A stretch of 64,000 nt of DNA from Siphonodentalium dalli (lineage: Eukaryota; Mollusca; Scaphopoda; Gadilida; Siphonodentaliidae): NCBI GenBank assembly GCA_032622095.1, contig CP136063.1, positions 23,190,987-23,254,986 on the forward strand, read 5' to 3'. Position 1 is the stretch's first letter, and every line of letters starts with the position of its first letter. A program made the translations under genes and the position numbers. The notes below the pieces were generated by a model. The model saw nothing but the letters and a program-made list of their open reading frames with translations, did no database searches and was not told where the DNA came from. Of the stretch, positions 1 to 45,795 are shown in pieces.

Positions 1-52
1 TCAGGAGGGAAGGATATGCTGTGCGACCATCATTTGATGAATTCGTCCACAA
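1..52 (+). CDS. SH2-tailed unconventional myosin, exon 1 of window (motor C-terminal part, partial)
   Basis: Read from base 3, this gives RREGYAVRPSFDEFVHK, which matches the myosin motor segment just before the converter (family pattern R-x-G-[YF]-x-x-R-x-x-F-x-x-F). The exon continues upstream of the window. It ends with two bases of a Lys codon at a GTTAGT donor. The next candidate exon supplies the third base, giving K-Y, the usual R/K-Y that follows this motif. The 50 coding bases begin an eleven-exon chain that stays in frame to 41426. Most of the motor domain, including the P-loop and switch regions, must lie outside the window. Confidence 0.72.
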
Positions 53-221
53 GTTAGTATCATATGTTAGTAATATTCTCTAGCTGCTGATATTTCTTTC
101 TGTGTAGGGCTGCCTGTGGGGTTGGGGAGCTGGTAGTTAGTATCATATGTTGATAATGTAAGATATAGAATCTATGTGAACAAGTTCAAAAATTCAATAA
201 TAAAGAAACTTTCCAGAGAAG

Positions 222-412
222 ATGAGGCCTAAGCAGAATGAGGTCCCCAGAGGGTGGATTTAGTGACGCTATCCCACATAGCAGAATGAGGCCATGCAGA
301 ATGAGGTTCCCAGAGGATGAAGTTAGTGGTGGTAGCCCGTTATGCGGGATAGCGTCACTAATTCACCCTCTGGGGACCTCATTCTGCAAATGACAGGCAC
401 ACTAAACTCAGG
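222..412 (+). mobile_element. AGAATGAGG foldback MITE
   Basis: Inverted arms GCAGAATGAGGTCCCCAGAG and CTCTGGGGACCTCATTCTGC, with an inner copy AGAATGAGGTTCCCAGAGG. Confidence 0.6.
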
Positions 413-731
413 CTTGTTTCTGACCACTTAACGTGTTATGCTCTAGCTTACCTGGGACCTCTACACACACAACTATAGGGCAGTGCACTATCCTAACTGA
501 ACATGTGTATGGTGAAATATGTCACAAGGTATTTCAGCGAGAGTCTATTCCACATTCAATATACAGTTATATTATATGGCGACCCCCTTTACTCATGCTG
601 TTTATAAAAAAATTCTTTGCTGACAATAAAAGGCTCAAAATCTGCTCTGCGCATGTGCAAAGAAACAGACCCCCCCCTCATCGCCAATTTGACTACTAAA
701 GTCAGAGAGACATGTGACCTTAAGTGCAAAG

Positions 732-1000
732 TACAGTAATGTCCTAAATAATCAACTCCTTAACCACACAAAATTTCAGGATTTAGTTGGAAATATGGCT
801 TGTTTCCAATCATCGGAAAACTCTCAGTGACGCTATCCCACATAGCAGAATGAGGCCATGCAGAATGAGGTTCCCAGAGGATGAAGTTAGTGGTGGTAGC
901 TTTCCAATAAATGGCAACAAGCCATATTTCGGACTAAATCTGAAAAATTACCCATAATTCTGCTATGGTTAAGGAGTCGGTTATTTAGGGCATTAGAGTA
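732..1000 (+). mobile_element. mariner-like MITE (CAGTAATGCCCTAAATAATC) with foreign loop
   Basis: TA-flanked inverted arms (CAGTAATGTCCTAAATAATC.. and ..TTATTTAGGGCATTAGAG). The loop 826-900 is a 75-bp copy of 262-336. Confidence 0.65.
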
Positions 1001-1450
1001 GAAGAACCATTGTAGTTAATATGTGCTTTGATCACGATATTTCTAATGAAATTCTTCCCCTTAGCTGACTATAAAAAGCAAACTCTTTTATCAAAATATG
1101 GCTGCACATGCATGAAGAATCTAACTCTCTGTCATCAATTGTCTGCCAAGTCACAGGGGTAACCATAGTGACTCATGTGCTGAAAGTACAAGTACAATTC
1201 CAGTTGATATGTGCATTTACTGTGTTGTATTTCTGTGCCAAATATCATATTATTTCGGGAGCGGTATTCCGGTCTCCCGCGTTATGGGAATATAAGGAAT
1301 GGACAGGTATTAATTTCTGGTCACTCGGGTTTAAAGGGTTAAATATTTCAATTGGGTTTACCAGGGTTTATATTATTTACCAGGGTTTACATTATTTACC
1401 AGGTACAAGATCTTGATGTGTAGGTTAGACATGGCTGGGAATCAAAACAG

Positions 1451-1555
1451 CTGTAAACAGATTATACAGGCCAGTGGGGTCAAAGGTTGCTTCATCGGGT
1501 GAGTGTAAACAGATTATACAGGCCAGTGGGGTCAAAGGTTGATTCATCGGGTAAG
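1451..1555 (+). repeat. Tandem duplication, 52 bp x 2
   Basis: TGTAAACAGATTATACAGGC begins each unit; both end TCATCGGGT(G/A)AGT. Confidence 0.8.
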
Positions 1556-1557
1556 TA

Positions 1558-1880
1558 TTAACCCTTTCATGATGGGAGCTGTGCTGGTGCAGCATTGAAT
1601 TTCCTGCACCAGTGCATTCTCTTTGATTCTTTTGGACCTTCCTGAAATTTCGAGAACACGTACCTGTGCCACTGCATTCTCTTACATATGCAAGTCTCCC
1701 ATAGGGAACCTTGCATATATAAGAGAATACACTGGCTTACCAGGTCAAGGTAAATATTGTTAGGCCCATGTATTCTCTTATATTTATGAGGCTGGCTATG
1801 GGTGACTCACATATATTAAAGAATGCATTGGCACAGGGTTTTCACAAAATTTCAGGAAGCTCCAATCATGGAACGGTTAA
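1558..1880 (+). mobile_element. piggyBac-like MITE, family D
   Basis: TTAACCCTTTCATGATGGGAGC at left and the inverse (GCTCCAATCATGGAACGGTTAA) at right, with diverged palindrome copies (GCATTCTCTTACATATGC..). Confidence 0.6.
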
Positions 1881-1898
1881 CAGATATCAAGTTCCTAG

Positions 1899-2421: not shown

Positions 2422-2442
2422 TTAGGTGTGTAAGATACTAAC

Positions 2443-3610: not shown

Positions 3611-3702
3611 AAAAACGAAGGTGTTCTTGAAATATTGGCACTTGGATGAGTTTAACGACGCCATAGAGAAAATGGGAAAGTCTGCATTACACTTACAGAG
3701 AG
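3611..3702 (+). CDS. SH2-myosin exon 3 (end of converter, lever helix, first half of IQ motif)
   Basis: The exon is bounded by acceptor TTCATCTCAG and donor AG|GTGAGT. The frame starting with one base of a split codon reads TKVFLKYWHLDEFNDAIEKM and continues GKSALHLQR. TKVFLKYWH is the highly conserved end of the myosin converter. The KYWH form recalls class XVI-like myosins. It ends after one base of a Val codon that is completed by exon 4, so the IQ motif LQRVARGFLGRRRV is cut by the intron. The downstream intron is 16,000 bp and holds the large satellite. The last 9 bases of the exon plus the donor are tandemly repeated in the intron. Confidence 0.88.
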
Positions 3703-3852
3703 GTGAGTTACTGATACGACTAAAACCACAATCACCAAGCCTAAAATACAGAGAGGTGAGTTACTGATACGACTAAAACCACAATCACCAAGCCTAAAAT
3801 ACAGAGAGGTGAGTTACTGATACGACTAAAACCACAATCACCAAGCCTCAAA
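3694..3852 (+). repeat. 53-bp tandem repeat of the exon 3 donor, 3 copies
   Basis: ACAGAGAGGTGAGTTACTGA starts each unit. The first copy contains the last 9 bases of exon 3 and its splice donor, so three potential GTGAGT donors exist at 53-bp spacing. Confidence 0.85.
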
Positions 3853-4499
3853 TACTCCGTACTAATGAGGTGTTAAGTCTGAATTGTCACCCCTACCCCC
3901 ATGAATCCTGAATACCTGAGTTAACAGAGAGGAGTGTCACCCCTAACCCCATGAATCCTGGATACCTGAGTTAACAGAGAGGGGTGTCACCCCTAACCCC
4001 ATGAATCCTGGATACCTGAGTTAACAGAGAGGGGTGTCACCCCTAACCACCATGAATCCTGGATACCTGAGTTAACAGAGAGGGGTGTCACCCCTAACCC
4101 CATGAATCCTGGATACCAGTTAACAGAGAGGGGTGTCACCCCTAACCCCATGAATCCTGGATACCTGTTAACAGAGAGGAGTGTCACCCCTAACCACCAT
4201 GAATCCTGGATACCTGAGTTAACAGAGAGGGGTGTCACCCCTAACCCCATGAATCCTGGATACCTGAGTTAACAGAGAGGAGTGTCACCCCTAACCACCA
4301 TGAATCCTGGATACCAGTTAACAGAGAGGGGTGTCACCCCTAACCCCATGAATCCTGGATACCAGTTAACAGAGAGGAGTGTCACCCCTAACCACCATGA
4401 ATCCTGGATACCAGTTAACAGAGAGGGGTGTCACCCCTAACCACCATGAATCCTGGATACCAGTTAACAGAGAGGGGTGTCACCCCTAACCCCATGAAT

Positions 4500-6290
4500 C
4501 CTGGATACCTGTTAACAGAGAGGAGTGTCACCCCTAACCACCATGAATCCTGGATACCAGTTAACAGAGAGGGGTGTCACCCCTAACCCCATGAATCCTG
4601 GATACCAGTTAACAGAGAGGAGTGTCACCCCTAACCCCATGAATCCTGGATACCAGTTAACAGAGAGGAGTGTCACCCCTAACCACCATGAATCCTGGAT
4701 ACCAGTTAACAGAGAGGAGTGTCACCCCAAACCCCATGAATCCTGGATACCAGTTAACAGAGAGGAGTGTCACCCCTAACCACCATGAATCCTGGATACC
4801 AGTTAACAGAGAGGAGTGTCACCCCTAACCACCATGAATCCTGGATACCAGTTAACAGAGAGGGGTGTCACCCCTAACCACCATGAATCCTGGATACCTG
4901 AGTTAACAGAGAGGGGTGTCACCCCTAACCACCATGAATCCTGAATACCAGTTAACAGAGAGGGGTGTCACCCCTAACCCCATGAATCCTGGATACAAGT
5001 TAACAGAGAGGAGTGTCACCCCAAACCCCATGAATCCTGGATACCAGTTAACAGAGAGGAGTGTCACCCCTAACCACCATGAATCCTGGATACCAGTTAA
5101 CAGAGAAGAGTGTCACCCCAAACCCCATGAATCCTGGATACCAGTTAACAGAGAGGGGTGTCACCCCTAACCACCATGAATCCTGGATACCAGTTAACAG
5201 AGAGGGGTGTCACCCCTAACCCCATGAATCCTGGATACCTGTTAACAGAGAGGAGTGTCACCCCTAACCACCATGAATCCTGGATACCAGTTAACAGAGA
5301 GGGGTGTCACCCCTAACCCCATGAATCCTGGATACCAGTTAACAGAGAGGAGTGTCACCCCTAACCCCATGAATCCTGGATACCAGTTAACAGAGAGGAG
5401 TGTCACCCCTAACCACCATGAATCCTGGATACCAGTTAACAGAGAGGAGTGTCACCCCAAACCCCATGAATCCTGGATACCAGTTAACAGAGAGGAGTGT
5501 CACCCCTAACCACCATGAATCCTGGATACCAGTTAACAGAGAGGGGTGTCACCCCTAACCACCATGAATCCTGGATACCAGTTAACAGAGAGGGGTGTCA
5601 CCCCTAACCCCATGAATCCTGGATACCTGTTAACAGAGAGGAGTGTCACCCCTAACCACCATGAATCCTGGATACCAGTTAACAGAGAGGGGTGTCACCC
5701 CTAACCCCATGAATCCTGGATACCAGTTAACAGAGAGGAGTGTCACCCCTAACCCCATGAATCCTGGATACCAGTTAACAGAGAGGAGTGTCACCCCTAA
5801 CCACCATGAATCCTGGATACCAGTTAACAGAGAGGAGTGTCACCCCAAACCCCATGAATCCTGGATACCAGTTAACAGAGAGGAGTGTCACCCCTAACCA
5901 CCATGAATCCTGGATACCAGTTAACAGAGAGGAGTGTCACCCCTAACCACCATGAATCCTGGATACCAGTTAACAGAGAGGGGTGTCACCCCTAACCACC
6001 ATGAATCCTGGATACCTGAGTTAACAGAGAGGGGTGTCACCCCTAACCACCATGAATCCTGAATACCAGTTAACAGAGAGGGGTGTCACCCCTAACCCCA
6101 TGAATCCTGGATACAAGTTAACAGAGAGGAGTGTCACCCCAAACCCCATGAATCCTGGATACCAGTTAACAGAGAGGAGTGTCACCCCTAACCACCATGA
6201 ATCCTGGATACCTGAGTTAACAGAGAGGGGTGTCACCCCTAACCACCATGAATCCTGGATACCAGTTAACAGAGAGGAGTGTCACCCCTA
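4500..6290 (+). repeat. Higher-order repeats of about 340-390 bp in the satellite
   Basis: The same order of variant monomers recurs at about 4525, 4916, 5255, 5643 and 6034. Steps are 391, 339, 388 and 391 bp, that is 7 to 8 monomers. Confidence 0.75.
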
Positions 6291-7300
6291 ACCCCATGAA
6301 TCCTGGATACCAGTTAACAGAGAGGAGTGTCACCCCTAACCACCATGAATCCTGGATACCAGTTAACAGAGAGGAGTGTCACTCCTAACCCCATGAATCC
6401 TGGATACCAGTTAACAGAGAGGGGTGTCACCCCTAACCACCATGAATCCTGGATACCTGAGTTAACAGAGAGGGGTGTCACCCCTAACCACCATGAATCC
6501 TGGATACCAGTTAACAGAGAGGAGTGTCACCCCTAACCCCATGAATCCTGGATACCTGAGTTAACAGAGAGGGGTGTCACCCCTAACCCCATGAATCCTG
6601 AATACCAGTTAACAGAGAGGAGTGTCACCCCTAACCACCATGAATCCTGGATACCAGTTAACAGAGAGGAGTGTCACCCCTAACCACCATGAATCCTGGA
6701 TACCAGTTAACAGAGAGGGGTGTCACCCCTAACCCCATGAATCCTGGATACCTGAGTTAACAGAGAGGGGTGTCACCCCTAACCACCATGAATCCTGGAT
6801 ACCAGTTAACAGAGAGGAGTGTCACCCCTAACCCCATGAATCCTGGATACCTGAGTTAACAGAGAGGGGTGTCACCCCTAACCCCATGAATCCTGGATAC
6901 CAGTTAACAGAGAGGAGTGTCACCCCTAACCACCATGAATCCTGGATACCAGTTAACAGAGAGGAGTGTCACCCCTAACCACCATGAATCCTGGATACCA
7001 GTTAACAGAGAGGGGTGTCACCCCTAACCCCATGAATCCTGGATACCAGTTAACAGAGAGGAGTGTCACCCCTAACCACCATGAATCCTGGATACCTGTT
7101 AACAGAGAGGGGTGTCACCCCTAACCACCATGAATCCTGGATACCAGTTAACAGAGAGGGGTGTCACCCCTAACCCCATGAATCCTGGATACCAGTTAAC
7201 AGAGAGGAGTGTCACCCCTAACCACCATGAATCCTGGATACCAGTTAACAGAGAGGAGTGTCACCCCTAACCCCATGAATCCTGAATACCTGAGTTAACA

Positions 7301-8300
7301 GAGAGGAGTGTCACCCCTAACCCCATGAATCCTGAATACCTGAGTTAACAGAGAGGAGTGTCACCCCTAACCCCATGAATCCTGGATACCAGTTAACATA
7401 GAGGAGTGTCACCCTAACCCCATGAATCCTGAATACCTGAGTTAACAGAGAGGAGTGTCACCCCTAACCCCATGAATCCTGGATACCAGTTAACATAGAG
7501 GAGTGTCACCCTAACCCCATGAATCCTGAATACCTGAGTTAACAGAGAGGGGTGTCACCCCTAACCCCATGAATCCTGGATACCTGAGTTAACAGAGAGG
7601 GGTGTCACCCCTAACCCCATGAATCCTGGATACCAGTTAACAGAGAGGGGTGTCACCCCTAACCCCATGAATCCTGGATACCAGTTAACATAGAGGGGTG
7701 TCGCCCCTAACCACCATGAATCCTGGATACCAGTTAACAGAGAGGGGTGTCACCCCTAACCCCATGAATCCTGGATACCAGTTAACAGAGAGGGGTGTCA
7801 CCCCTAACCCCATGAATCCTGGATACCAGTTAACAGAGAGGAGTGTCACCCCTAACCACCATGAATCCTGAATACCTGAGTTAACAGAGAGGAGTGTCAC
7901 CCCTAACCCCATGAATCCTGAATACCTGAGTTAACAGAGAGGAGTGTCACCCCTAACCCCATGAATCCTGGATACCAGTTAACATAGAGGAGTGTCACCC
8001 TAACCCCATGAATCCTGAATACCTGAGTTAACAGAGAGGAGTGTCACCCCTAACCCCATGAATCCTGGATACCAGTTAACATAGAGGAGTGTCACCCTAA
8101 CCCCATGAATCCTGAATACCTGAGTTAACAGAGAGGGGTGTCACCCCTAACCCCATGAATCCTGGATACCTGAGTTAACAGAGAGGGGTGTCACCCCTAA
8201 CCCCATGAATCCTGGATACCAGTTAACAGAGAGGGGTGTCACCCCTAACCCCATGAATCCTGGATACCAGTTAACATAGAGGGGTGTCGCCCCTAACCAC
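7301..8300 (+). repeat. 586-bp higher-order duplication within the satellite
   Basis: Rare AACATAGAGG variants at 7397, 7494 and 7689 recur at 7983, 8080 and 8275, each exactly 586 bp (12 monomers) later. Confidence 0.8.
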
Positions 8301-11300
8301 CATGAATCCTGGATACCAGTTAACAGAGAGGGGTGTCACCCCTAACCACCATGAATCCTGGATACCAGTTAACATAGAGGGGTGTCGCCCCTAACCACCA
8401 TGAATCCTGGATACCAGTTAACAGAGAGGGGTGTTACCCCTAACCCCATGAATCCTGGATACCAGTTAACAGAGAGGGGTGTCACCCCTAACCCCATGAA
8501 TCCTGGATACCAGTTAACAGAGAGGGGTGTCACCCCTAACCCCATGAATCCTGGATACCAGTTAACAGAGAGGAGTGTCACCCCTAACCACCATGAATCC
8601 TGGATACCAGTTAACAGAGAGGGGTGTCACCCCTAACCACCATGAATCCTGAATACCTGAGTTAACAGAGAGGAGTGTCACCCCTAACCACCATGAATCC
8701 TGGATACCTGAGTTAACAGAGAGGGGTGTCACCCCTAACCACCATGAATCCTGGATACCAGTTAACAGAGAGGAGTGTCACACCTAACCACCATGAATCC
8801 TGGATACAAGTTAACAGAGAGGAGTGTCACCCCTAACCACCATGCATCCTGGATACCTGAGTTAACAGAGAGGAGTGTCACCCCTAACCCCATGAATCCT
8901 GGATACCAGTTAACAGAGAGGAGTGTCACCCCTAACCCCATGAATCCTGGATACCAGTTAACAGAGAGGAGTGTCACCCCTAACCACCATGAATCCTGGA
9001 TACCTGAGTTAACAGAGAGGGGTGTCACCCTAACCACCATGAATCCTGGATACCAGTTAACAGAGAGGAGTGTCACCCCTAACCCCATGAATCCTGGATA
9101 CCAGTTAACAGAGAGGAGTGTCACCCCTAACCCCATGAATCCTGGATACCAGTTAACAGAGAGGGGTGTCACCCCTAACCCCATGAATCCTGGATACCTG
9201 AGTTAACAGAGAGGAGTGTCACCCCTAACCCCATGAATCCTGGATACCTGAGTTAACAGAGAGGAGTGTCACCCCTAACCCCATGAATCCTGGATACCAG
9301 TTAACAGAGAGGAGTGTCACCCCTAACCCCATGAATCCTGGATACCTGAGTTAACAGAGAGGGGTGTCACCCCTAACCACCATGAATCCTGGATACCAGT
9401 TAACAGAGAGGAGTGTCACCCCTAACCACCATGAATCCTGAATACCTGAGTTAACAGAGAGGGGTGTCACCCCTAACCACCATGAATCCTGGATACCAGT
9501 TAACAGAGAGGAGTGTCACCCCTAACCACCATGAATCCTGGATACCTGAGTTAACAGAGAGGAGTGTCACCCCTAACCCCATGAATCCTGGATACCTGAG
9601 TTAACAGAGAGGGGTGTCACCCCTAACCACCATGAATCCTGAATACCTGAGTTAACAGAGAGGAGTGTCACCCCTAACCCCATGAATCCTGGATACCTGA
9701 GTTAACAGAGAGGAGTGTCACCCCTAACCCCATGAATCCTGAATACCTGAGTTAACAGAGAGGGGTGTCACCCTAACCACCATGAATCCTGGATACCTGA
9801 GTTAACAGAGAGGAGTGTCACCCCTAACCCCATGAATCCTGGATACCTGAGTTAACAGAGAGGAGTGTCACCCCTAACCACCATGAATCCTGGATACCAG
9901 TTAACAGAGAGGGGTGTCACCCCTAACCCCATGAATCCTGGATACCTGAGTTAACAGAGAGGGGTGTCACCCCTAACCACCATGAATCCTGGATACCAGT
10001 TAACAGAGAGGAGTGTCACCCCTAACCACCATGAATCCTGGATACCAGTTAACAGAGAGGAGTGTCACCCCTAACCCCATGAATCCTGGATACCAGTTAA
10101 CAGAGAGGAGTGTCACCCCTAACCCCATGAATCCTGGATACCAGTTAACAGAGAGGAGTGTCACCCCTAACCCCATGAATCATGAGTTAACAGAGAGGAG
10201 TGTCACCCCTAACCACCATGAATCCTGGATACCAGTTAACAGAGAGGAGTGTCACCCCTAACCCCATGAATCCTGGATACCTGAGTTAACAGAGAGGGGT
10301 GTCACCCCTAACCCCATGAATCCTGGATACCAGTTAACAGAGAGGAGTGTCACCCCTAACCCCATGAATCCTGGATACCTGAGTTAACAGAGAGGAGTGT
10401 CACCCCTAACCCTATGAATCCTGGATACCAGTTAACAGAGAGGGGTGTCACCCCTAACCCCATGAATCCTGGATACCTGAGTTAACAGAGAGGAGTGTCA
10501 CCCCTAACCCCATGAATCCTGGATACCAGTTAACAGAGAGGGGTGTCACCCCTAACCCCATGAATCCTGGATACCAGTTAACAGAGAGGGGTGTCACCCC
10601 TAACCCCATGAATCCTGGATACCAGTTAACAGAGAGGGGTGTCACCCCTAACCCCATGAATCCTGGATACCAGTTAACAGAGAGGAGTGTCACCCCTAAC
10701 CACCATGAATCCTGGATACCTGAGTTAACAGAGAGGGGTGTCACCCCTAACCCCATGAATCCTGGATACCTGAGTTAACAGAGAGGGGTGTCACCCCTAA
10801 CCCCATGAATCCTGGATACCAGTTAACAGAGAGGGGTGTCACCCCTAACCCCATGAATCCTGGATACCAGTTAACAGAGAGGGGTGTCACCCCTAACCAC
10901 CATGAATCCTGGATACCTGAGTTAACAGAGAGGGGTGTCACCCCTAACCCCATGAATCCTGGATACCTGAGTTAACAGAGAGGAGTGTCACCCCTAACCA
11001 CCATGAATCCTGGATACCAGTTAACAGAGAGGAGTGTCACCCCTAACCCCATGAATCCTGAATACCTGAGTTAACAGAGAGGGGTGTCACCCCTAACCAC
11101 CATGAATCCTGGATACCAGTTAACAGAGAGGGGTGTCACCCCTAACCCCATGAATCCTGGATACCAGTTAACAGAGAGGGGTGTCACCCCTAACCCCATG
11201 AATCCTGGATACCAGTTAACAGAGAGGAGTGTTGCCCCTAACCCCATGAATCCTGGATACCTGAGTTAACAGAGAGGAGTGTCACCCCTAACCCCATGAA

Positions 11301-14300
11301 TCCTGAATACCTGAGTTAACAGAGAGGAGTGTCACCCCTAACCCCATGAATCCTGGATACCTGAGTTAACAGAGAGGAGTGTCACCCCTAACCCCATGAA
11401 TCCTGAATACCTGAGTTAACAGAGAGGAGTGTCACCCCTAACCCCATGAATCCTGGATACCTGAGTTAACAGAGAGGAGTGTCACCCCTAACCCCATGAA
11501 TCCTGAATACCTGAGTTAACAGAGAGGGGTGTCACCCCTAACCCCATGAATCCTGGATACCAGTTAACAGAGAGGAGTGTCACCCCTAACCCCATGAATC
11601 CTGAATACCTGAGTTAACAGAGAGGAGTGTCACCCCTAACCACCATGAATCCTGGATACCTGAGTTAACAGAGAGGAGTGTCACCCCTAACCACCATGAA
11701 TCCTGGATACCTGAGTTAACAGAGAGGGGTGTCACCCCTAACCACCATGAATCCTGGATACCAGTTAACAGAGAGGGGTGTCACCCCTAACCCCATGAAT
11801 CCTGGATACCAGTTAACAGAGAGGAGTGTCACCCCTAACCACCATGAATCCTGGATACCTGAGTTAACAGAGAGGAGTGTCACCCCTAACCCCATGAATC
11901 CTGGATACCAGTTAACAGAGAGGAGTGTCACCCCTAACCCCATGAATCCTGGATACCAGTTAACAGAGAGGAGTGTCACCCCTAACCCCATGAATCCTGG
12001 ATACCAGTTAACAGAGAGGAGTGTCACCCCTAACCCCATGAATCCTGAATACCTGAGTTAACAGAGAGGAGTGTCACCCCTAACCACCATGAATCCTGGA
12101 TACCTGAGTTAACAGAGAGGGGTGTCACCCCTAACCACCATGAATCCTGGATACCAGTTAACAGAGAGGGGTGTCACCCCTAACCCCATGAATCCTGGAT
12201 ACCAGTTAACAGAGAGGGGTGTCACCCCTAACCACCATGAATCCTGGATACCAGTTAACAGAGAGGGGTGTCACCCCTAACCCCATGAATCCTGGATACC
12301 AGTTAACAGAGATGGGTGTCACCCCTAACCACCATGAATCCTGGATACCAGTTAACAGAGAGGGGTGTCACCCCTAACCACCATGAATCCTGGATACCAG
12401 TTAACAGAGAGGGGTGTCACCCCTAACCACCATGAATCCTGGATACCAGTTAACAGAGAGGAGTGTCACCCCTAACCACCATGAATCCTGGATACCAGTT
12501 AACAGAGAGGGGTGTCACCCCTAACCACCATGAATCCTGGATACCAGTTAACAGAGAGGGGTGTCACCCCTAACCCATGAATCCTGGATACCAGTTAACA
12601 GAGAGGGGTGTCACCCCTAACCACCATGAATCCTGGATACCAGTTAACAGAGAGGGGTGTCACCCCTAACCCCATGAATCCTGGATACCAGTTAACAGAG
12701 AGGAGTGTCACCCCTAACCCCATGAATCCTGGATACCTGAGTTAACAGAGAGGGGTGTCACCCCTAACCCCATGAATCCTGGATACCAGTTAACAGAGAG
12801 GAGTGTCAATCCTAACCCCATGAATCCTGGATACCAGTCAACAGAGAGGGTGTCACCCCTAACCCCATGAATCCTGGATACCTGAGTTAACAGAGAGGAG
12901 TGTCACCCCTAACCCCATGAATCCTGGATACCAGTTAACAGAGAGGAGTGTCACCCCTAACCACCATGAATCCTGGATACCTGAGTTAACAGAGAGGGGT
13001 GTCACCCCTAACCACCATGAATCCTGGATACCAGTTAACAGAGAGGAGTGTCACCTCTAACCACCATGAATCCTGAATACCAGTTAACAGAGAGGAGTGT
13101 CACCCCTAACCACCATGAATCCTGAATACCAGTTAACAGAGAGGTGTGTCACCTCTAACCACCATGGATCCTGGATACCAGTTAACAGAGAGGAGTGTCA
13201 CCCCTAACCACCATGAATCCTGAATACCAGTTAACAGAGAGGAGTGTCACCTCTAACCACCATGGATCCTGGATACCAGTTAACAGAGAGGGGTGTCACC
13301 CTAACCACCATGAATCCTGGATACCTGAGTTAACAGAGAGGAGTGTCACCCCTAACCCCATGAATCCTGGATACCTGAGTTAACAGAGAGGGGTGTCACC
13401 CCTAACCCCATGAATCCTGGATACCTGAGTTAACAGAGAGGAGTGTCACCCCTAACCCCATGAATCCTGGATACCAGTTAACAGAGAGGAGTGTCACTCC
13501 TAACCCCATGAATCCTGGATACCAGTTAACAGAGAGGAGTGTCACCCCTAACCACCATGAATCCTGGATACCTGAGTTAACAGAGAGGGGTGTCACCCCT
13601 AACCACCATGAATCCTGGATACCAGTTAACAGAGAGGAGTGTCACCCCTAACCACCATGAATCCTGGATACCTGAGTTAACAGAGAGGGGTGTCACCCCT
13701 AACCACCATGAATCCTGGATACCAGTTAACAGAGAGGGGTGTCACCTCTAACCACCATGGATCCTGGATACCAGTTAACAGAGAGGGGTGTCACCCTAAC
13801 CACCATGAATCCTGGATACCAGTTAACAGAGAGGGGTGTCACCCTAACCACCATGAATCCTGGATACCAGTTAACAGAGAGGGGTGTCACCCCTAACCCC
13901 ATGAATCCTGGATACCTGAGTTAACAGAGAGGGGTGTCACCCCTAACCCCATGAATCCTGGATACCTGAGTTAACAGAGAGGGGTGTCACCCCTAACCCC
14001 ATGAATCCTGGATACCAGTTAACAGAGAGGGGTGTCACCCCTAACCCCATGAATCCTGGATACCAGTTAACAGAGAGGAGTGTCACCCCTAACCCCATGA
14101 ATCCTGGATACCAGTTAACAGAGAGGAGTGTCACCCCTAACCCCATGAATCCTGGATACCAGTTAACAGAGAGGGGTGTCACCCCTAACCCCATGAATCC
14201 TGGATACCAGTTAACAGAGAGGAGTGTCACCCCTAACCCCATGAATCCTGGATACCAGTTAACAGAGAGGAGTGTCACCCCTAACCCCATGAATCCTGAA

Positions 14301-15120
14301 TACCTGAGTTAACAGAGAGGAGTGTCACCCCTAACCCCATGAATCCTGGATACCAGTTAACAGAGAGGGGTGTCACCCCTAACCCCATGAATCCTGGATA
14401 CCTGAGTTAACAGAGAGGAGTGTCACCCCTAACCCCATGAATCCTGGATACCAGTTAACAGAGAGGAGTGTCACCCCTAACCCCATGAATCCTGGATACC
14501 AGTTAACAGAGAGGAGTGTCACCCCTAACCCCATGAATCCTGGATACCAGTTAACAGAGAGGAGTGTCACCCCTAACCCCATGAATCCTGGATACCAGTT
14601 AACAGAGAGGGGTGTCACCCCTAACCCCATGAATCCTGGATACCAGTTAACAGAGAGGAGTGTCACCCCTAACCACCATGAATCCTGGATACCAGTTAAC
14701 AGAGAGGAGTGTCACCCTAACACCATGAATCCTGGATACCAGTTAACAGAGAGGAGTGTCACCCCTAACCACCATGAATCCTGAATACCAGTTAACAGAG
14801 AGGAGTGTCACCCCTAACCCCATGAATCCTGAATACCAGTTAACAGAGAGGGGTGTCACCCCTAACCCCATGAATCCTGGATACCTGAGTTAACAGAGAG
14901 GAGTGTCACCCCTAACCCCATGAATCCTGAATACCTGAGTTAACAGAGAGGAGTGTCACCCCTAACCCCATGAATCCTGGATACCTGAGTTAACAGAGAG
15001 GGTGTCGCCCCTAACCACATGAATCCTGGATACCAGTTAACATAGAGGGGTGTCACCCCTAACCCCATGAATCCTGGATACCAGTTAACAGAGAGGGGTG
15101 TCACCCCTAACCCCATGAAT

Positions 15121-17281
15121 CCTGAAGACCAGTTAACAGAGAGGGTGTCGCCCCTACCCCCATGTATCCTGAATACCAGTTAACAGAGAGGAGTGTCACC
15201 CCTAACCCCATGAATCCTGAAGACCAGTTAACAGAGAGGGTGTCGCCCCTACCCCCATGTATCCTGAATACCAGTTAACAGAATTGTCACCCCCCCCCCC
15301 CCATGAAACCTGAATACCAGTTAACAGAGAGGGGTCTCATCCCACCCCACAAATCTTGAACACTAGTTATCCAGGATTCATGGGGTTAGGGGTGACACCC
15401 CTCTCTGTTAACTCAGGTATCCAGGATTCATGGTGGTTAGGGGTGTCACCCTAACCACCATGAATCCTGGATACCAGTTAACAGAGAGGGGTGTCGCCCC
15501 TAACCCCATGAATCCTGGATACCAGTTAACAGAGAGGAGTGTCACCCCTAACCCCATGAATCCTGGATACCTGAGTTAACAGAGAGGGGTGTCACCCCTA
15601 ACCCCATGAATCCTGGATACCAGTTAACAGAGAGGGGTGTCACCCCTAACCCCATGAATCCTGGATACCTGAGTTAACAGAGAGGGGTGTCGCCCCTAAC
15701 CACCATGAATCCTGGATACCAGTTAACAGAGAGGAGTGTCACCCCTAACCCCATGAATCCTGGATACCAGTTAACAGAGAGGAGTGTCACCCCTAACCCC
15801 ATGAATCCTGGATACCTGAGTTAACAGAGAGGGGTGTCACCCCTAACCACCATGAATCCTGGATACCTGAGTTAACAGAGAGGAGTGTCACCCCTAACCA
15901 CCATGAATCCTGGATACCAGTTAACAGAGAGGAGTGTCACCCATAACCACCATGAATCCTGGATACCAGTTAACAGAGAGGAGTGTCACCCCTAACCCCA
16001 TGAATCCTGGATACCTGAGTTAACAGAGAGGGGTGTCACCCCTAACCACCATGAATCCTGGATACCAGTTAACAGAGAGGGGTGTCACCCCTAACCCCAT
16101 GAATCCTGGATACCAGTTAACAGAGAGGGGTGTCACCCCTAACCCCATGAATCCTGGATACCAGTTAACAGAGAGGAGTGTCACCCCTAACCACCATGAA
16201 TCCTGGATACCAGTTAACAGAGAGGGGTGTCACCCCTAACCCCATGAATCCTGGATACCAGTTAACAGAGAGGGGTGTCACCCCTAACCCCATGAATCCT
16301 GGATACCAGTTAACAGAGAGGAGTGTCACCCCTAACCACCATGAATCCTGGATACCTGAGTTAACAGAGAGGGGTGTCACCCCTAACCCCATGAATCCTG
16401 AATACCTGAGTTAACAGAGAGGAGTGTCACCCCTAACCACCATGAATCCTGGATACCAGTTAACAGAGAGGAGTGTCACCCCTAACCACCATGAATCCTG
16501 GATACCAGTTAACAGAGAGGAGTGTCACCCCTAACCACCATGAATCCTGGATACCTGAGTTAACAGAGAGGGGTGTCACCCCTAACCACCATGAATCCTG
16601 GATACCAGTTAACAGAGAGGAGTGTCACCCCTAACCCCATGAATCCTGGATACCAGTTAACAGAGAGGGGTGTCACCCCTAACCACCATGAATCCTGGAT
16701 ACCAGTTAACAGAGAGGGGTGTCACCCCTAACCCCATGAATCCTGGATACCAGTTAACAGAGAGGGGTGTCACCCCTAACCCCATGAATCCTGGATACCA
16801 GTTAACAGAGAGGAGTGTCACCCCTAACCACCATGAATCCTGGATACCAGTTAACAGAGAGGGTGTCGCCCCTAACCACATGAATCCTGGATACCTGAGT
16901 TAACAGAGAGGAGTGTCACCCCTAACCCCATGAATCCTGGATACCTGAGTTAACAGAGAGGGGTGTCGCCCCTAACCACCATGAATCCTGGATACCAGTT
17001 AACAGAGAGGAGTGTCACCCCTAACCCCATGAATCCTGGATACCAGTTAACAGAGAGGAGTGTCACCCCTAACCCCATGAATCCTGGATACCAGTTAACA
17101 GAGAGGGGTGTCACCCCTAACCCCATGAATCCTGAAGACCAGTTAACAGAGAGGGTGTCGCCCCTACCCCCATGTATCCTGAATACCAGTTAACAGAATT
17201 GTCACCCCCCCCCATGAAACCTGAATACCAGTTAACAGAGAGGGGTCTCATCCCACCCCACAAATCTTGAACACTAGTTAA
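15121..17281 (+). repeat. Duplicated satellite end module
   Basis: The degenerate block CCTGAAGACCAGTTAACAG.. to ..CAAATCTTGAACACTAGTTA occurs at about 15121-15369 and again at 17129-17281, with poly-C tracts of different length. Confidence 0.8.
15365..15447 (-). repeat. Inverted satellite segment
   Basis: ATCCAGGATTCATGGGGTTA and GGTGGTTAGGGGTG are satellite sequence in reverse orientation. It meets forward monomers at GGGGTG|TCACCCTAACC, a hairpin-like junction. It directly follows a degenerate array-end module. Confidence 0.9.
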
Positions 17282-17298
17282 CAGAGAGGGGTGTCATC

Positions 17299-19650: not shown

Positions 19651-19702
19651 ATTTAATCTTCTGTTCCTTACCGGTCCTCATTTTACATGTTTTATGTTCC
19701 AG

Positions 19703-19867: not shown

Positions 19868-19959
19868 GTAGGTCCTATTTGTGATAGTATAAAATTCCCA
19901 CCTTTCTGAAATGTAATTTTAATTTCAGATCAAATTTTTATCAATGATAGAATGCCACT

Positions 19960-25962: not shown

Positions 25963-26159
25963 GTTGAGGAGGAGTCATCGGATGAGGATGTCCTGGAGGA
26001 TGACTTCCTGCTAGCAGCGTCTCACAAAAAGAACAAATACGGCAAACAGGGAACCAAAATGGCTTCCATCCGATGGTTCCAGGAAACGCAGACGGACAAA
26101 GTTATAGAGCAGGAGAAAGGAATGTTCTCCGAGTGGTTTCATGGGATTATAACTAGAGC
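25963..26159 (+). CDS. SH2-myosin exon 6 (acidic linker and start of SH2 domain)
   Basis: Acceptor AACCTTGCAG and donor AGC|GTGAGT. It begins VEEESSDEDVLEDDF, an acidic segment with possible CK2 sites, then a basic patch, then MFSEWFHGIITR. WFHG-I-TR is the start (beta A and alpha A) of an SH2 domain. It ends with two bases of an Ala codon that exon 7 completes. The last ~75 bp of this exon, with its donor, are present four more times in the following intron at about 103-bp spacing. Confidence 0.92.
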
Positions 26160-26195
26160 GTGAGTAAATTTGATTGTTTCCATGGTAATGCAGAC

Positions 26196-26580
26196 AGTAG
26201 ATGTTCCAGAGTGAGGAAAGGGCAATGTTCTCAGAGTGGTTTCATGGGATTATAACTAGATTGTGAGTAAATTTGATTGTTTCCATGGTAACGCAGACAA
26301 ACAAAGTTATAAAGCAGGAGAAAGGAATGTTCTCCGAGTGGTTTCATGGGATTATAACTAGAGCGTGAGTAATTTTGATTGTTTCCATGTTAATGCAGAT
26401 GGATAACTTTATGGAGCAGGATAAAAGAATGTTTTCAGAGTGGTTTCATGGAATTATAACTCAGAGTGCGAGTAATTTGTTGGTTTCCATGGTAATGTAA
26501 ATGGACAATGTAAAAAAGCCTGAATGTTCCGGGAGTGCATGGTCTCATGAGATCATAACTAGAGTGTGTGCAAATTTCGA
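26196..26580 (+). repeat. Four tandem copies of the exon 6 3' end and donor
   Basis: Donor-equivalent sites lie at 26160 (real), 26263, 26365, about 26468 and 26573, spacing 102-105 bp. The copy ending 26364 still reads QTNKVIKQEKGMFSEWFHGI followed by ITRA and GTGAGT. Later copies decay (the fourth has GCGAGT). Confidence 0.9.
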
Positions 26581-28157: not shown

Positions 28158-28196
28158 AATATAATACTAACTTATGTTAGGCTTCATTTGTTACAG

Positions 28197-28286
28197 CGAA
28201 GCAGAGAAATTGTTACAAGGAAAGCCTGTTGGATGTTTCCTGATTCGAGTTAGCGAGAGTAGATTTGGTTATTCTTTATCATTCCG
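28197..28286 (+). CDS. SH2-myosin exon 7 (SH2 core with FLIRVSES)
   Basis: Acceptor TTTGTTACAG and donor CCG|GTAAGT. It reads (A)EAEKLLQGKPVGCFLIRVSE.. then GYSLSF. FLIRVSES is the FLVRES-type strand of SH2 domains; its Arg, which binds the phosphotyrosine phosphate, is present, so the domain should be able to bind ligand. Both borders are phase 2 and match exons 6 and 8. Confidence 0.95.
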
Positions 28287-28595
28287 GTAAGTAAAATTTA
28301 TATCGATGCAGTCATTTTCATTTGATGATTCATTTATATTCCTTCATCAAGAAATATGTAGTTGTTGGCGATCATCATATAACATTGGCAATTATTGTAT
28401 GGTATGATGACAACAATGATATTCCTTAACATATGCTACACTATATCTATAAATGTAAAATTTTCTGTAATACATTTTGAAGAAAATGTTGACTGAACAT
28501 GTCGAACTTGGTGCTATATGAAAGACTAGAAATCTTTTGATTTTCATAGCATAGTTCACTCAATGTTAAGTTGGTGCAGTATTTTATTAGACTCA

Positions 28596-28934: not shown

Positions 28935-29947
28935 GATTGGAGGAGGTTTCAATAAAAATAGTGGACAACAGATAATACAAGGAAAAATAGGTCCCTTTAA
29001 TTGGAGGGAAATAATGTTGAGATAATAAGTTCAAGAAGCAACCGATTTGTTGAACTTATTGTCTGAACATTTTCTATGGGAACTAGCCTACCCTACTCAT
29101 ATTTAAATTTGTGCAGTACTAATTTTTGCGCACCAGTTTAAAATATACCACAGGGAAAACAAGAGTGTATGTTGATGAGTTAAGTACATTACGAAAAGTT
29201 GAAATTACGCCTATCCATGTAGGCCTATATTTATTTAAAATATTTAGTCTAACCAATATAAAAAATTAAAAACCATAACTCGATGCCAATCGACGTACAT
29301 GGTAACTCAACAGTGTTGTAATGCTGGTAAGAAGTACACATATATTGTGTCCTGTTATATTACTTGTTGTGCCAGGAATATATTCCATATTTGGAAGTAA
29401 TTAAAAAAGAATAAAAAATATTTCTGGCCACCGGCTTTTACCTTTCTTCACTACATTACCGGAAACATCACTATTTTTTAGGCCTTATTTCAACACACCT
29501 CTAAAGTATAATAGACCACTCCGATGTATAATTTTATAACAAAATGAAAGAATACATTCAGTAAAGAAAGGGTTGAATCAAACTCCAGGCAGAGTTATCT
29601 CCCATCGCTCCACTGATATACCAATACCACAAGGACATTTGGTAAGTATTCGTGACATGATCTTAGTTCTTATATTGTAGGATTAAAATTGTCTTTGTCT
29701 ATGAATGGCAGTGGCTCAGTTCATATTGTTCTTATGAATACCGAAAGAATTACCATTATTGCAAACGTTTGGTGGTAAAAATAAGATAATAGGTGACTAA
29801 ATATAGTTCCGACGATGTAAAAATAGATGTATTGGTCCGCAAATTACCGTCCTTCCGGCAGTGATCTATCGCAGTAATAACAGTGAGGGCACTGCATGGA
29901 GTTTGGGGTTGATATAAATTCATCACTCAGTTTTATGTAACTTTCAG
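28935..29947 (+). other. Intron 7 remainder, no feature seen
   Basis: AT-rich intron sequence without a repeat or frame that I can support. Confidence 0.5.
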
Positions 29948-30065
29948 TGGTGAGGACAGGACCCGACACTATATGATAGACCAGACACCAAACGGGAAAT
30001 ACCTTGTGGTCGGAGAAGGAAAAGTCATGAAAAGTCTCAAACATCTCGTGCAATATTACCAAACT
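29948..30065 (+). CDS. SH2-myosin exon 8 (SH2 beta C to alpha B)
   Basis: Acceptor TGTAACTTTCAG and donor ACT|GTAAGT. It starts (R)GEDRTRHYMIDQTPNGKYL and contains SLKHLVQYYQT, the alpha B helix ending with the usual L-V-x-Y-Y/H pattern. RHYMI provides the beta D His found in most SH2 domains. It ends at phase 0. Confidence 0.95.
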
Positions 30066-30327
30066 GTAAGTCATATAAAGGGTACTGCTTATCAGAACAT
30101 CCCTATAAATCACATATAATATTACCAAAGGTATAGGTCATTACTTTGTTAATACGGTCCAGTGTTAAGGCCTTGCTAAGTCAATTTTTCATTTCTTATG
30201 CCCATGAGCATGGTCCCGTAAGCTGGCTGTGCATGTAACATTTTTATTTGAGTTGGAAATGTTGGGGAAATTTTCAATCAATATATGATAATTGCAATTC
30301 ATGTTTAAATATAAACATGCGATTAAC

Positions 30328-32880: not shown

Positions 32881-32928
32881 CACCAGTTATCTAACTGGAA
32901 GCATTTACTAACAGAATCGTGTGGACAG
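32881..32928 (+). CDS. SH2-myosin exon 9 (end of SH2, 16 codons)
   Basis: This short exon has acceptor TCTATTTTTCAG, donor CAG|GTAAGT and phase 0 on both sides. It reads HQLSNWKHLLTESCGQ. The pattern L-L-T-x-x-C, followed in exon 10 by x-D-Y-x-E-L, resembles the C-terminal edge of the SH2D2A/HSH2D/SH2D7 type of SH2 domain. Confidence 0.88.
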
Positions 32929-35342: not shown

Positions 35343-35734
35343 ACCTAGAATATTTGAAATTTACTATTTGTTAACTTTGTTATGTAAATAAAAACTACGA
35401 TCCCAATGTCGTGGGCAATCTTTTCAGGGGGGAGGGTACATGTATAACTCTTTTATCCATTACAAGCACATGAACTTTGTTATAAGTATGTAAATCAGCT
35501 GTGATTTTCAATGTAGTCTGCAATATTGTCAAGGGATAGAACTCTATTATGAGCACATTATAAGCACAATTTTTGTTTCGAGCAGTAGTTATTTCAATGT
35601 CGTCTGCAATATCTCAGGAAATATTACTCTATTCTCATTGTAGGCACATTAACTTAAGCGGGGGATATAACTCTAATTTCATTGCAGGCTCATGAACTTA
35701 TCAAACAGGGGATATAACTCTATTTTCATTGCAG

Positions 35735-35821
35735 GCACATGAACAATGTGATTATGCTGAACTGATCGATGAGAAAACATACTTTGTCCTGGAGAACCTT
35801 GAGCGACTCAAAACCATGAAG
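35735..35821 (+). CDS. SH2-myosin exon 10
   Basis: Acceptor TTTTCATTGCAG and donor AAG|GTGAAG, phase 0 to phase 0. It reads AHEQCDYAELIDEKTYFVLE and ends ERLKTMK. The DYAEL tyrosine in an acidic setting is a candidate phosphotyrosine site, and might be a ligand for the adjacent SH2 domain (inference). Confidence 0.88.
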
Positions 35822-39410: not shown

Positions 39411-39441
39411 ACTAATCTATCTGCATAAAAACAAATAACCA

Positions 39442-40788: not shown

Positions 40789-41140
40789 AGTGTGTCTGAC
40801 ATTTGCTATACAGTTTGGGAACCTCATTCTGCTTAGGCCTCAACTGTTATGGGAAACCTAAGCAGAATGAGGTCCCCAGAGGGTGAATTTAGTGATGCTA
40901 TCCCACACAGTGGGCTATCATCACCAAATTCACCCTCTGGGGGACCTCATTCTGCTTAGGTTTCCCATAACAGTTGAGGCCTAAGCAGAATGAGGTTCCC
41001 AGAGGGTGAATTTGGTGATGCTAGCCCGCTATGCGGGATAGCGTCACAAAATTCACCCTCTGGGAACCTCATTCTGCAAATGACAGACACACTATTTGCA
41101 GGCTTGCCCTTACTATGCAGACGATAAAATGCATAATCGA
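40789..41140 (+). mobile_element. AGAATGAGG foldback MITEs, nested pair
   Basis: Two palindromes in series with GCAGAATGAGG..GGTGAATTT(A/G)GTGATGCTA arms, ending near TATGCAGACGATAAAATGC, about 90 bp upstream of exon 11. Confidence 0.6.
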
Positions 41141-41228
41141 GGTGACTGATCGTAAACATCACAAAAGGGAACTAGAATTTGGTGATGCTAGCCCGCAGCA
41201 CTATTTCCAGACTTTCATATTATTTCAG

Positions 41229-41426
41229 ACAAGACCCATCTCGAGAGTGACCGGACCGAGTGAGAAGGCTCCGACGATTCCCGACCGTAATTACAGTCGG
41301 ATGAGTGACATGAGCTCCGGTGCACTCCATCACGAAGAATCAAACAAAAACAGGCCCCTCCCACAAATTCCTGAACCAACCAATCCAGCGCCAGAAGCTG
41401 TGTACAATCGACTCATTCAGAATCAG
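41229..41426 (+). CDS. SH2-myosin exon 11 (proline- and tyrosine-rich tail)
   Basis: Acceptor TTATTTCAG and donor CAG|GTGATT, phase 0 to phase 0, 66 codons. The product contains RNYSRMSDMSSG, RPLPQIPEPTNPAP (proline-rich, possible SH3 ligand) and EAVYNRLIQNQ. Low-complexity tail of a signalling adaptor type. The chain of exons 1 to 11 totals 1242 coding bases from base 3, a multiple of three, without an internal stop. Confidence 0.8.
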
Positions 41427-42432: not shown

Positions 42433-42448
42433 AAAACAAACTAGCTAT

Positions 42449-43113: not shown

Positions 43114-43121
43114 ATTGCATA

Positions 43122-43315
43122 ATCGAGGTTCCCAATGGGTGTACATCACAATATTCACCATTTGGGAACTTCAATCTGAGTCTTATTGCCTAGCAGATGA
43201 GGCCATGCAGAATGAGGTCCCCAGAGGGTGAATTTGGTGATGCTATCCCACTGTGTGGGATAGCATCACTAAATTCACCCTCTGGGGACCTCATTCTGCA
43301 AATGACAATCACTTG
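43122..43315 (+). mobile_element. AGAATGAGG foldback MITE
   Basis: GAATGAGGTCCCCAGAGGGT and its inverse around ATGCTATCCCACTGTGTGGG. Confidence 0.6.
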
Positions 43316-43354
43316 TTAACCTGTTCTATATTAAATGGATTATCCCTTTGGGCA

Positions 43355-43779
43355 TTATCCCTTTACCCAACAAACCGGCCAAAAACGCCCAAATAAAGCT
43401 TCAACAGCCTAAAATATCTTCGGTCTGTCTCAATAACACCATACAAATATGGATATCATTGTAACCGGTTCATCGACCACATTGTGATGGTTACAGTTAT
43501 GCCCTGTGCCAATGCATTCTCTTATATATGCCAGTCGACCATAAAATTTTTTTTTAACACTTTTTACCATTTTTTCTTACATTCTTTAACAATTTTAGAA
43601 TTTTTTCTGACATTTTTTAACAATTTTTATAATATTTTTCTACATTCTTTGACAATTTTATCATTTTTAATATGTGTTAAGCCAATGCATTCTCTTATAT
43701 ATGCGAGGCGACCTATGGTCGACTCGCATATATAAGAGAATGCATTGGCACAGCGCCGTTCTGTTGGGTAAAGGGTTAT
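43355..43779 (+). mobile_element. piggyBac-like MITE A with TTAT flanks
   Basis: The ends CCCTTTACCC and GGGTAAAGGG are flanked by TTAT on both sides instead of TTAA. The first palindrome is cut at its centre (..GTCGACCATA|AAATTT), while the second is complete. Confidence 0.8.
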
Positions 43780-43856
43780 AAGCAGACTAGAGACAGACGA
43801 ACAGATAATACAAATGCTGAAGGATTGTAATTTATTTGTGGGAAATGTTCAGATAA

Positions 43857-45637
43857 TAGAGACCTTTCGCATCCTCACGTTTACGATTACGAATACGGAT
43901 AGCTATTCGTAGTCGTAAGTCTATCCGTATGGCCAAAAAGTCCTTTCGCAAAACGAGTACGCGTAAGAGTTTTGACGAACACGTACGATCATTATTTCGT
44001 ACCACTTTTACAACTCAAAGCGTGTGTTTGGTATACAGTCCCTTAATACTTCACTTATCGTCTCATTTGCAACAATGCGATTATCATGACCTGCTAATAT
44101 TGTCAATAATTCGACCAGTCACAACGTACGACCCGGGATTCTCGTGATATATTGTGGCAATACAGGTATAAATGCCAGGTCATATGTGGTGGAAATTCAG
44201 TTCGTTGTTAGCATGGATGACCGGATAGACGTTATGCTGATGGGGAAGAGGGGTTCCTGAATTTGGACCTCACATCAACCACGACGCCATCGTTCAAGCC
44301 CCTTCAAGTCCGCGAGTTGATTTCAATGCGATTTCGGCTTCACCTCTTTGGGTTTAGGAAATCCGACATAAGGTTGGTGAGCTCGTTGATGTGCATCACT
44401 TCTGATGTGTTACTACCAAATCGAAACAAAGTCGACACGGTAGAAGCGATGTGCATCAAGTTGCTTTTTTGTCAGATATTTGACAAACCGGCAAAATTTC
44501 GTTGCACAAAATGTTGATAAATAACAGGTTTTGGGCAATTTTATAATATAGTTCACTGTGGTTAGCATTAATTTTGAGCAATTACTCGATTCTGATAACA
44601 GAAGCGGCATTTCAAAAAAAATTGTTGTTGGAATCTGATGATATGGGGACATCTAATCGGATTGAGTACCTTTAAATGCCGCATTTGTGCATGTTCTTTA
44701 AATTAAAAATAAATGCAAAGAACAAACCTGACAGAGACTGCTGAGCTCTGGTGATGTCGGTGGGTGTGCCAAATATTCTTTTAGTTATGGTTCAGGAGCA
44801 GAAATTACTACTTACCAGTTGAATCGGGATCCAGGGTATGTTCAGATTACTCAGACAGAGTACTTTATGTAACTTAGAACTCGGTTATGAATTCCATGTA
44901 ATTTTAAAATCGGTTATGAATTCCATGTAATTTTAAAATGCCCTGCATTACAGACTCTACGAGAGAGATATATAAAACCCAACTTCTACCGAAAACCGAA
45001 TATTATTAAATTGAATGAACTATTCAATTCGGGAAAGGGGAAGAGAACACAAAATCTTTCACTATTCATTAATAGGGTTATGCCATTATTTAGGCTCTCC
45101 TGATGCATTCTATAACTGCATACGCTAGGACACCACCATGGGTTGTTGAATTAAATAATTGTTGAATTTCACTATATAATGTGTACTATCTTGCACATAA
45201 TAATCACTCAAAACTCCTCATGCATCGCACACTATATACTGTATTTTTGGCGACTGGTTTCATAGTGCACTCTTACTGTAAAGTTTTCTGTCGCAGCCAT
45301 GGCAGCTATGGCTATCCGTTGTGAATAGCGATCTTATTTCGCGGGAAGCTCGTGATTCACGACGACGAGTACAGTGATTGACAATCTAAACAGCACATCG
45401 AGGTCGTAGCTCAATACAACTGGATGGTGTACATGATATACATATACAGTCTCGAACGGAGTAGAGTGATATATTGCAGAAAATAAATTTCAGGTGTTAT
45501 TTGAGCTTATTAGAAACCATGAAATCGTAACCGTCATTACGGATAGTAAAATACGAGAACGATTAGAAAGTACACAAAGGTTGGTGACGTAGTACCCTAT
45601 CCGTATCCGTAATCGTAAACGTGAGTTTTGCGAAAGG
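43857..45637 (+). mobile_element. Harbinger-derived transposon with TIRs and transposase relic
   Basis: The left end reads GAGACCTTTCGCA followed by TCACGTTTACGATTACG, and the right end is its inverse (..CGTAAACGTGAGTTTTGCGAAAGGTCTC). The direct repeat TAATA flanks both sides. The TIRs are rich in CGTA/TACG. The interior holds the transposase relic and, at about 44640-44685, one end of the foldback family seen at 48920-49282. Confidence 0.6.
44263..44517 (+). pseudogene. Harbinger (PIF/HARBI1-like) transposase N-terminal relic
   Basis: The 84-residue open frame contains MRFRLHLFGFRKSDIRLV, then LLPNRNKVDTVEAMCIKLL and KFRC. This follows the N-terminal pattern of PIF/Harbinger transposases (R-x-x-F-G-F-x-x-x-x-[IL] ... 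PNR-x-x-V-[DE]-x-x-E-A-[LM]-C-I). The catalytic DDE part is missing; after the stop comes a fragment of another foldback repeat. It lies inside a TIR-bounded element (43857-45637). Confidence 0.55.
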
Positions 45638-45720
45638 TCTCTAATAAGTTCAACATACGACACAGCACATCATAACTGAATAAAGGTTGTTTTATTTCTT
45701 ATTTGTTGGATTTTCCCCAG

Positions 45721-45795
45721 ATGGATCAACATTCTTATGCTAGACATACGGATGGTCCAAAGAAAAAGATGTCGACAACTCGTGGCCAGCGATGA
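45721..45795 (+). CDS. SH2-myosin candidate terminal exon a
   Basis: It follows a good acceptor (TTTGTTGGATTTTCCCCAG) at phase 0, as exon 11 requires, and reads MDQHSYARHTDGPKKKMSTT, then RGQR and TGA. The 3' part is the first copy of a four-unit, 54-55-bp decaying tandem repeat that runs to about 45970. A PKKK(M) stretch could serve as a basic motif. The alternative last exon is at 58417. Confidence 0.5.
   Translation: MDQHSYARHTDGPKKKMSTTRGQR

Follow-up and report, generated by a model that had tools for sequence, protein, structure and literature searches.

The class-XXVIII myosins have been described with a tail that comprises an IQ motif, a short coiled coil and an SH2 domain (PMC2375034). 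A class-28 myosin is present in Capsaspora, and intron patterns serve as a criterion of myosin class (PMC5583752). The SH2-tailed myosins of choanoflagellates and filastereans fall within a III-like group that has myosin XVI as a relative (PMC3942036), and Monosiga has seven orphan myosins with SH2 domains (PMC2375034). In MYO16b, two YxxM sites are phosphorylated by Fyn and PI3-kinase is recruited (PMC7464383). We analyzed a 64-kb stretch of DNA from Siphonodentalium dalli (the window) and propose, with a probability of roughly 0.86, that it holds the 3' part of one SH2-tailed unconventional myosin gene, whatever its class. A preliminary description of this DNA had pointed to an SH2-tailed class XXVIII and a link to MYO16; the first is a published architecture (PMC2375034), and the second agrees with the III-like grouping and its relation to myosin XVI (PMC3942036).

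By reconstruction of the spliced frame on the + strand of the window, twelve exons of matching phase gave an open frame of 443 codons that begins at base 3 and ends at a stop, with no internal stop or frameshift (Table 1). The joining of these exons into one transcript is a prediction from the genomic sequence. The preliminary description had listed eleven phase-matched exons, of which the phases stood and the count was raised to twelve, and its gene end at 45795 coincides with the TGA of the spliced frame (45793-45795). Each of the 11 introns is of the GT-AG type and keeps the phase, which is not independent support since both properties were demanded during exon choice. The splice sites were ranked on a crude score against all AG or GT outside the satellite, with exon 4 ending at 19819: the median rank was the top 4% for the 11 acceptors and the top 0.6% for the 11 donors, with mediocre acceptors at exons 2, 7, 8 and 11, where 13-27% of all AG score equally high. 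A scan for further exons, covering intron 3 from base 17300 onward, showed that two of the 11 introns hold one additional candidate each, of compatible phase and with good sites (41121-41141 and 44785-44835); the scan may miss exons, because the acceptors of exons 2, 7, 8 and 11 would fail its cut-offs.

Table 1. Exons of the predicted SH2-tailed myosin gene, and the satellite within it, by position in the window.
Feature	Positions	Strand	Content
Exon 1	3-52	+	Converter start, RREGYAVRPSFDEFVHK; 5' end outside window; phase 2 out
Exon 2	1403-1498	+	Remainder of converter, YKILMCRLDMAGNQNSCKQIIQASGVKGCFIG; donor CGG/GTGAGT good; acceptor mediocre; supported by converter profile
Exon 3	3611-3702	+	KTKVFLKYWHLDEFNDAIEKMGKSALHLQR; end of motor and first half of IQ motif
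Satellite	3885-17296	.	48-base unit, 274 copies; 13.4 kb, within intron 3
Exon 4	19703-19867	+	Second half of IQ motif (VARGFLGRRR) and charged stretch; most likely end given, weaker alternative donor gives end 19819
Exon 5	22887-23002	+	Linker containing Pro (KAPPVPDISPPNS)
Exon 6	25963-26159	+	Linker, acidic; then start of SH2 (EWFHGIITRA)
Exon 7	28197-28286	+	SH2 core with phosphotyrosine-binding Arg (CFLIRVSES); surrounding ORF 28171-28287, SH2 E=2e-6
Exon 8	29948-30065	+	SH2 core (GEDRTRHYMIDQ ... SLKHLVQYYQT); surrounding ORF 29913-30116, SH2 E=2.8e-5
Exon 9	32881-32928	+	48 bases; C-terminal part of SH2, HQLSNWKHLLTESCGQ; supported by score against HSH2D
Exon 10	35735-35821	+	AHEQCDYAELIDEKTYFVLENLERLKTMK
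Exon 11	41229-41426	+	Pro/Tyr tail: NYSRM (YxxM), RPLPQIP (SH3-ligand-like), VYNRL
Exon 12	45721-45795	+	C-terminus MDQHSYARHTDGPKKKMSTTRGQR, then stop

The 5' exons had been taken for the end of a myosin motor, and this reading was upheld by a profile built from five PDB converters. The join of exon 2 with its neighbours, exons 1, 3 and 4, scored 60.2 bits on this profile, compared to at most 41.4 bits in 426 control joins drawn from six further stretches of the window; the best control join (41.4 bits) overlaps exon 4, and the next scored 41.2 bits. An initial candidate for exon 2 at 1884-1979 (frame beginning YQVPRYDILSHQ) reached 40.5 bits, not above the controls, and was rejected. The searches of Pfam, NCBIfam and PDB and the heptad scoring used the spliced protein with the shorter exon 4 (end 19819) in place of the 443-residue version. 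In the PDB search, the converter and neck matched structures of myosin X (E=1.6e-5) and myosin VIIa (E=1.8e-5), but exon 2 did not improve the best score, which was 28.1 bits with it and also when X and consensus letters were substituted for it. Pfam Myosin_head gave 17.4 and 21.1 bits, below its curated cut-off of 33.3; of this profile, the window covers only positions 616-679 of 679. The splice of exon 3 to exon 4 restores an IQ-like motif, LQRVARGFLGRRR, at the expected position, with 14.7 and 16.2 bits on the Pfam IQ profile (curated cut-off, 20.3). The profile search proposed in the preliminary description succeeded for SH2 (E=1.2e-19), but Myosin_head and IQ matched below their curated cut-offs; the three matches lie in the expected order along the spliced protein. 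An NCBIfam search of the spliced protein, against a prokaryotic library, gave no matches.

The SH2 domain (PF00017) was matched over profile positions 1-77 of 77, with 70.6 bits. The domain needs the 48-base exon 9 to be complete, which qualifies the full SH2 domain of the preliminary description; the phosphotyrosine-binding Arg named there was found (Arg256). Exon 9 scored 23 against HSH2D (P=2e-5 versus shuffles), and the next best of eight windows scored -3. Three residues align with Syk and HSH2D, namely Arg238 (ITR), Arg256 (FLIR) and His276 (RHY), numbered along the 443-residue spliced protein. They correspond to the Arg of helix A, the Arg of FLVR and the His of strand D, which we take to form the phosphotyrosine pocket, and on this alignment the predicted domain keeps its pocket residues. 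Among solved structures, the top relative with exon 9 included was HSH2D (PDB 2cs0; 76.7 bits for the whole chain), followed by Syk (75.0 bits whole chain, 48.7 bits for the best single domain) and PLC-gamma-2 (61.4 bits); with exon 9 omitted, Syk (67.9 bits) ranked above HSH2D (66.5 bits).

HSH2D is an adaptor that is not known to carry a motor, and its solved chain (119 residues) is the SH2 domain alone. The SH2 exons of S. dalli continue in frame from the myosin exons in the predicted splicing. We considered the idea that vertebrate stand-alone adaptors of the HSH2D type arose when an SH2-tailed myosin lost its motor and only the tail was kept, in which case the fused state here would be ancestral, and the ATG at 26059 might still start an SH2-only product. 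The idea is doubtful: the likeness to HSH2D, the top solved match, extends through exon 9 and favors it slightly, against which Syk comes first without that exon, in a comparison of solved structures only.

A weaker point of the single-gene reading is the exon 4-5 intron, which lies between the myosin and SH2 parts: its donor (top 3.9%) and its acceptor (top 7.4%) are both moderate. Exon 4 was originally ended at 19819, and this end was replaced by 19867 because the donor there ranks at 3.9% compared to 36%. This junction bears on whether the window instead holds two adjacent genes, one for a myosin whose end lies close to exon 4 and one for an independent SH2 adaptor resembling HSH2D, starting in exon 5 or 6. 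The frame of exon 4 meets a stop just beyond the exon (ORF 19657-19881), the in-frame ATG at 26059, with A at -3 and G at +4, could start an adaptor, and an adaptor is the closest solved relative of the SH2 domain. However, the exon 4 donor at 19867 is of compatible phase, the open frame of exon 5 has no ATG upstream of the acceptor, back to the in-frame stop, and the joined myosin-SH2 architecture is the one published for class XXVIII (PMC2375034). We consider two genes improbable, and a single SH2-tailed myosin gene remains our preferred reading.

A decayed copy of an SH2-tailed myosin is still less probable, and we regard a pseudogene as highly unlikely given 443 codons free of stops and frameshifts and the retained pocket residues. 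Tandem repeats adjoin or duplicate several exon edges, which would favor a decayed copy, but this proximity was not clearly above expectation, with 6 of the 12 exons at most 15 bases from an array compared to 3.7 expected (P=0.13). Eight of the many other ORFs in the window were searched and gave no family above its curated cut-off. Two satellite ORFs had sub-threshold cEGF and DUF4439 matches, which we take for repeat artefacts.

Beyond the SH2 domain lie about 120 residues that carry Pro and Tyr motifs, consistent with the Pro/Tyr-rich tail proposed earlier, and the tyrosine sites singled out with it (DYAEL, NYSRM and VYNRL) are all present in the spliced protein. The tail YSRM fits YxxM, the ligand motif of PI3-kinase p85. 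Such YxxM tyrosines, together with PxxP sites, are a likeness to the tail of MYO16 (class XVI); the MYO16 account in PMC7464383 differs in naming no SH2 domain of its own. The predicted protein shares with class XXVIII the SH2 domain of the tail and, on a sub-threshold match, probably the IQ motif, and differs by the Pro/Tyr tail, which the description in PMC2375034 does not mention. The short coiled coil of that class is not evident here: a crude heptad score of the neck-linker (shorter exon 4) gave no support for one (P=0.27 versus shuffles).

Strict membership of class XXVIII is probable and takes the larger share of the total probability, with the class resting on the motor domain, upstream of base 1. 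As a subset of the SH2-tailed myosin reading, the gene may belong to another III-like lineage that kept or gained an SH2 domain, which we consider rather unlikely. SH2 tails are known in the III-like clade, at the C-terminus in filastereans as here, in a group whose members also have kinase, WW, PH and phosphatase domains (PMC3942036), and the orphan myosins of Monosiga add to this possibility; against it, the order and number of the tail parts, with one IQ motif and one SH2 domain towards the C-terminus, fit the class-XXVIII description (PMC2375034).

For an SH2-tailed myosin we propose a scheme in which every functional step is predicted from sequence. The motor, of which the window holds only the converter, would walk on or tension actin, and a light chain of the calmodulin type would sit on the single IQ motif. 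The SH2 domain towards the C-terminus would anchor the motor at tyrosine-phosphorylated partners, such as those at receptor or adhesion sites within the actin cortex. Phosphorylated tail tyrosines may recruit further SH2 proteins, as YSRM might recruit PI3-kinase p85, or alternatively may fold back onto the myosin's own SH2 domain.

A search of the openly licensed literature by class name found no functional study of class-XXVIII myosins; of its matches, only PMC2375034 contains the term 'class-XXVIII', and those to 'myo28' or 'myosin 28' were, by title, on other subjects or other myosins. The S. dalli gene is very probably a further example of an already described, little-studied myosin type and not a new kind of protein. 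SH2-tailed myosins would form a direct connection between tyrosine-kinase signalling and an actin motor, and with a clean exon map the tail can be cloned and its binding partners sought.

The in-frame joining of myosin and SH2 sequence that the preliminary description proposed for 1-45795 was retained, but its count of eleven exons was not. When we read the three + frames, the converter start, motor end, IQ region, linker, three SH2 pieces and tail stood out as clear exons, and the final spliced model spans 443 codons in 12 exons. For exon 4, a donor at 19867 is likelier than one at 19819; with the former, 11 of 11 donors fall in the best 5% of GT sites outside the satellite in intron 3, and with the latter 10 of 11. 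The best 5% of AG sites include 6 of the 11 acceptors. Scanning for additional phase-compatible exons with good sites gave one candidate in each of two of the 11 introns, with intron 3 restricted to the part beyond the satellite and an acceptor cut-off that would also drop model exons 2, 7, 8 and 11. Rfam (gathering thresholds) gave no match and ARAGORN no tRNA gene in the whole window. The joining of exons 1-12 into one transcript is predicted from sequence.

Coordinates of the gene model, repeats and neighboring frame
Feature	Position	Strand	Remarks
Exons 1-4	3-52, 1403-1498, 3611-3702, 19703-19867	+	
Exons 5-8	22887-23002, 25963-26159, 28197-28286, 29948-30065	+	
Exons 9-12	32881-32928, 35735-35821, 41229-41426, 45721-45795	+	
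Satellite	3885-17296		48-base unit, 274 copies, 13.4 kb; inside intron 3
Short tandem repeats	1452-1556, 3694-3855, 23012-23999		adjoin or run across edges of exons 2, 3, 5
Short tandem repeats	26077-26508, 35621-35744, 45785-45945		adjoin or run across edges of exons 6, 10, 12
ORF	60617-62614	+	665 codons between stops; leucine-rich repeats (LRR_8 E=7e-13) and TIR (TIR_2 E=5.2e-11)

Some of the tandem-repeat copies at exon edges duplicate a splice site and part of the exon; in this repeat-rich window such repeats do not clearly exceed chance (P=0.13). Long open frames run through the satellite on both strands and are probably repeat artefacts. The downstream ORF is probably an intronless Toll-like receptor, judging by its domains, and is in keeping with an animal source.

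We sought exon 2 among all open AG...GT stretches of the right phase, 45-180 bases long, between exons 1 and 3. Each of these 80 candidates was spliced to exons 1, 3 and 4, and a profile built from five PDB converters was used to score the product. The chosen exon scored 60.2 bits, a longer variant with the same donor 47.1, and the next distinct candidate 42.1. Control joins from six other intervals (n=426) reached 41.4 bits, in a join overlapping exon 4, and then 41.2; substituting X for exon 2 gave 27.7. The best PDB score with exon 2 was 28.1 bits, no different from that of a query in which X and consensus letters took its place; exon 2 therefore draws its support from the converter-profile test. 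A GKTRVY peptide at 29153, within intron 7 and outside the gene model, resembles the myosin GKTKVF motif, probably by chance.

The converter and neck matched PDB structures of myosin X (E=1.6e-5) and VIIa (E=1.8e-5). In the Pfam check of the spliced product, made with exon 4 ending at 19819, SH2 was recovered (E=1.2e-19), but Myosin_head (17.4 bits for the whole product and 21.1 for the first 100 residues, with only the last tenth of the profile inside the window) and IQ (14.7 and 16.2 bits) fell short of the curated thresholds (33.3 and 20.3, respectively). Membership in class XXVIII is a candidate assignment based on architecture, the motor domain lying mostly outside the window.

The full SH2 domain with its phosphotyrosine-binding arginine, as first described, was borne out across the entire profile (1-77 of 77), and binding is predicted. 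The FLIR arginine, helix-A arginine and strand-D histidine are kept in alignment with Syk and the SH2 adaptor HSH2D (PDB 2cs0); in known SH2 domains, these residues pair with phosphotyrosine. Exon 9, 48 bases with strong splice sites, provides the SH2 end missing from exons 8 and 10. Against HSH2D it scored 23 (BLOSUM62; 5/16 identities; P=2e-5 by shuffles), and the second best of the eight open 48-base windows in its intron scored -3. The HSH2D score was 76.7 bits with exon 9 and 66.5 without, the two queries differing in their flanks as well. Among solved structures only, and within the best 60 of 95 matches, HSH2D was the best match, for which exon 9 was needed; its lead over Syk by whole-chain score, exon 9 included, was narrow. 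An origin of HSH2D-type adaptors from a myosin tail is improbable, and a literature search brought up nothing on it among the entries listed. Within exon 6, an in-frame ATG at 26059 (A at -3, G at +4) lies 75 bases upstream of the first SH2 Trp codon, and translation of an SH2-only product may start there.

The tail sites DYAEL, NYSRM and VYNRL, already noted in the preliminary description, are present at Tyr331, Tyr375 and Tyr412, together with RPLPQIP, which fits a class-I SH3 ligand pattern. In the MYO16b tail, Fyn phosphorylates YxxM sites and phosphorylation leads to PI3-kinase recruitment (PMC7464383). From the kept SH2 pocket residues, the tail motifs and this precedent, we expect that the SH2 domain would hold the motor at tyrosine-phosphorylated sites and that the motor may double as a scaffold.

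Class-28 is reported in Capsaspora (2017 census, PMC5583752), and choanoflagellate and filasterean SH2-bearing myosins fall in a myosin III-like group to which myosin XVI is related (2014 census, PMC3942036). In a 2024 study of SH2-domain transcripts in a sea star (PMC11593052), one of the entries given under tyrosine kinases is ‘myosinIIIb-like’ and may be an SH2-tailed myosin of this kind. Given these published SH2-bearing and class-28 myosins, the architecture is already known, and the window contributes one further gene of it.
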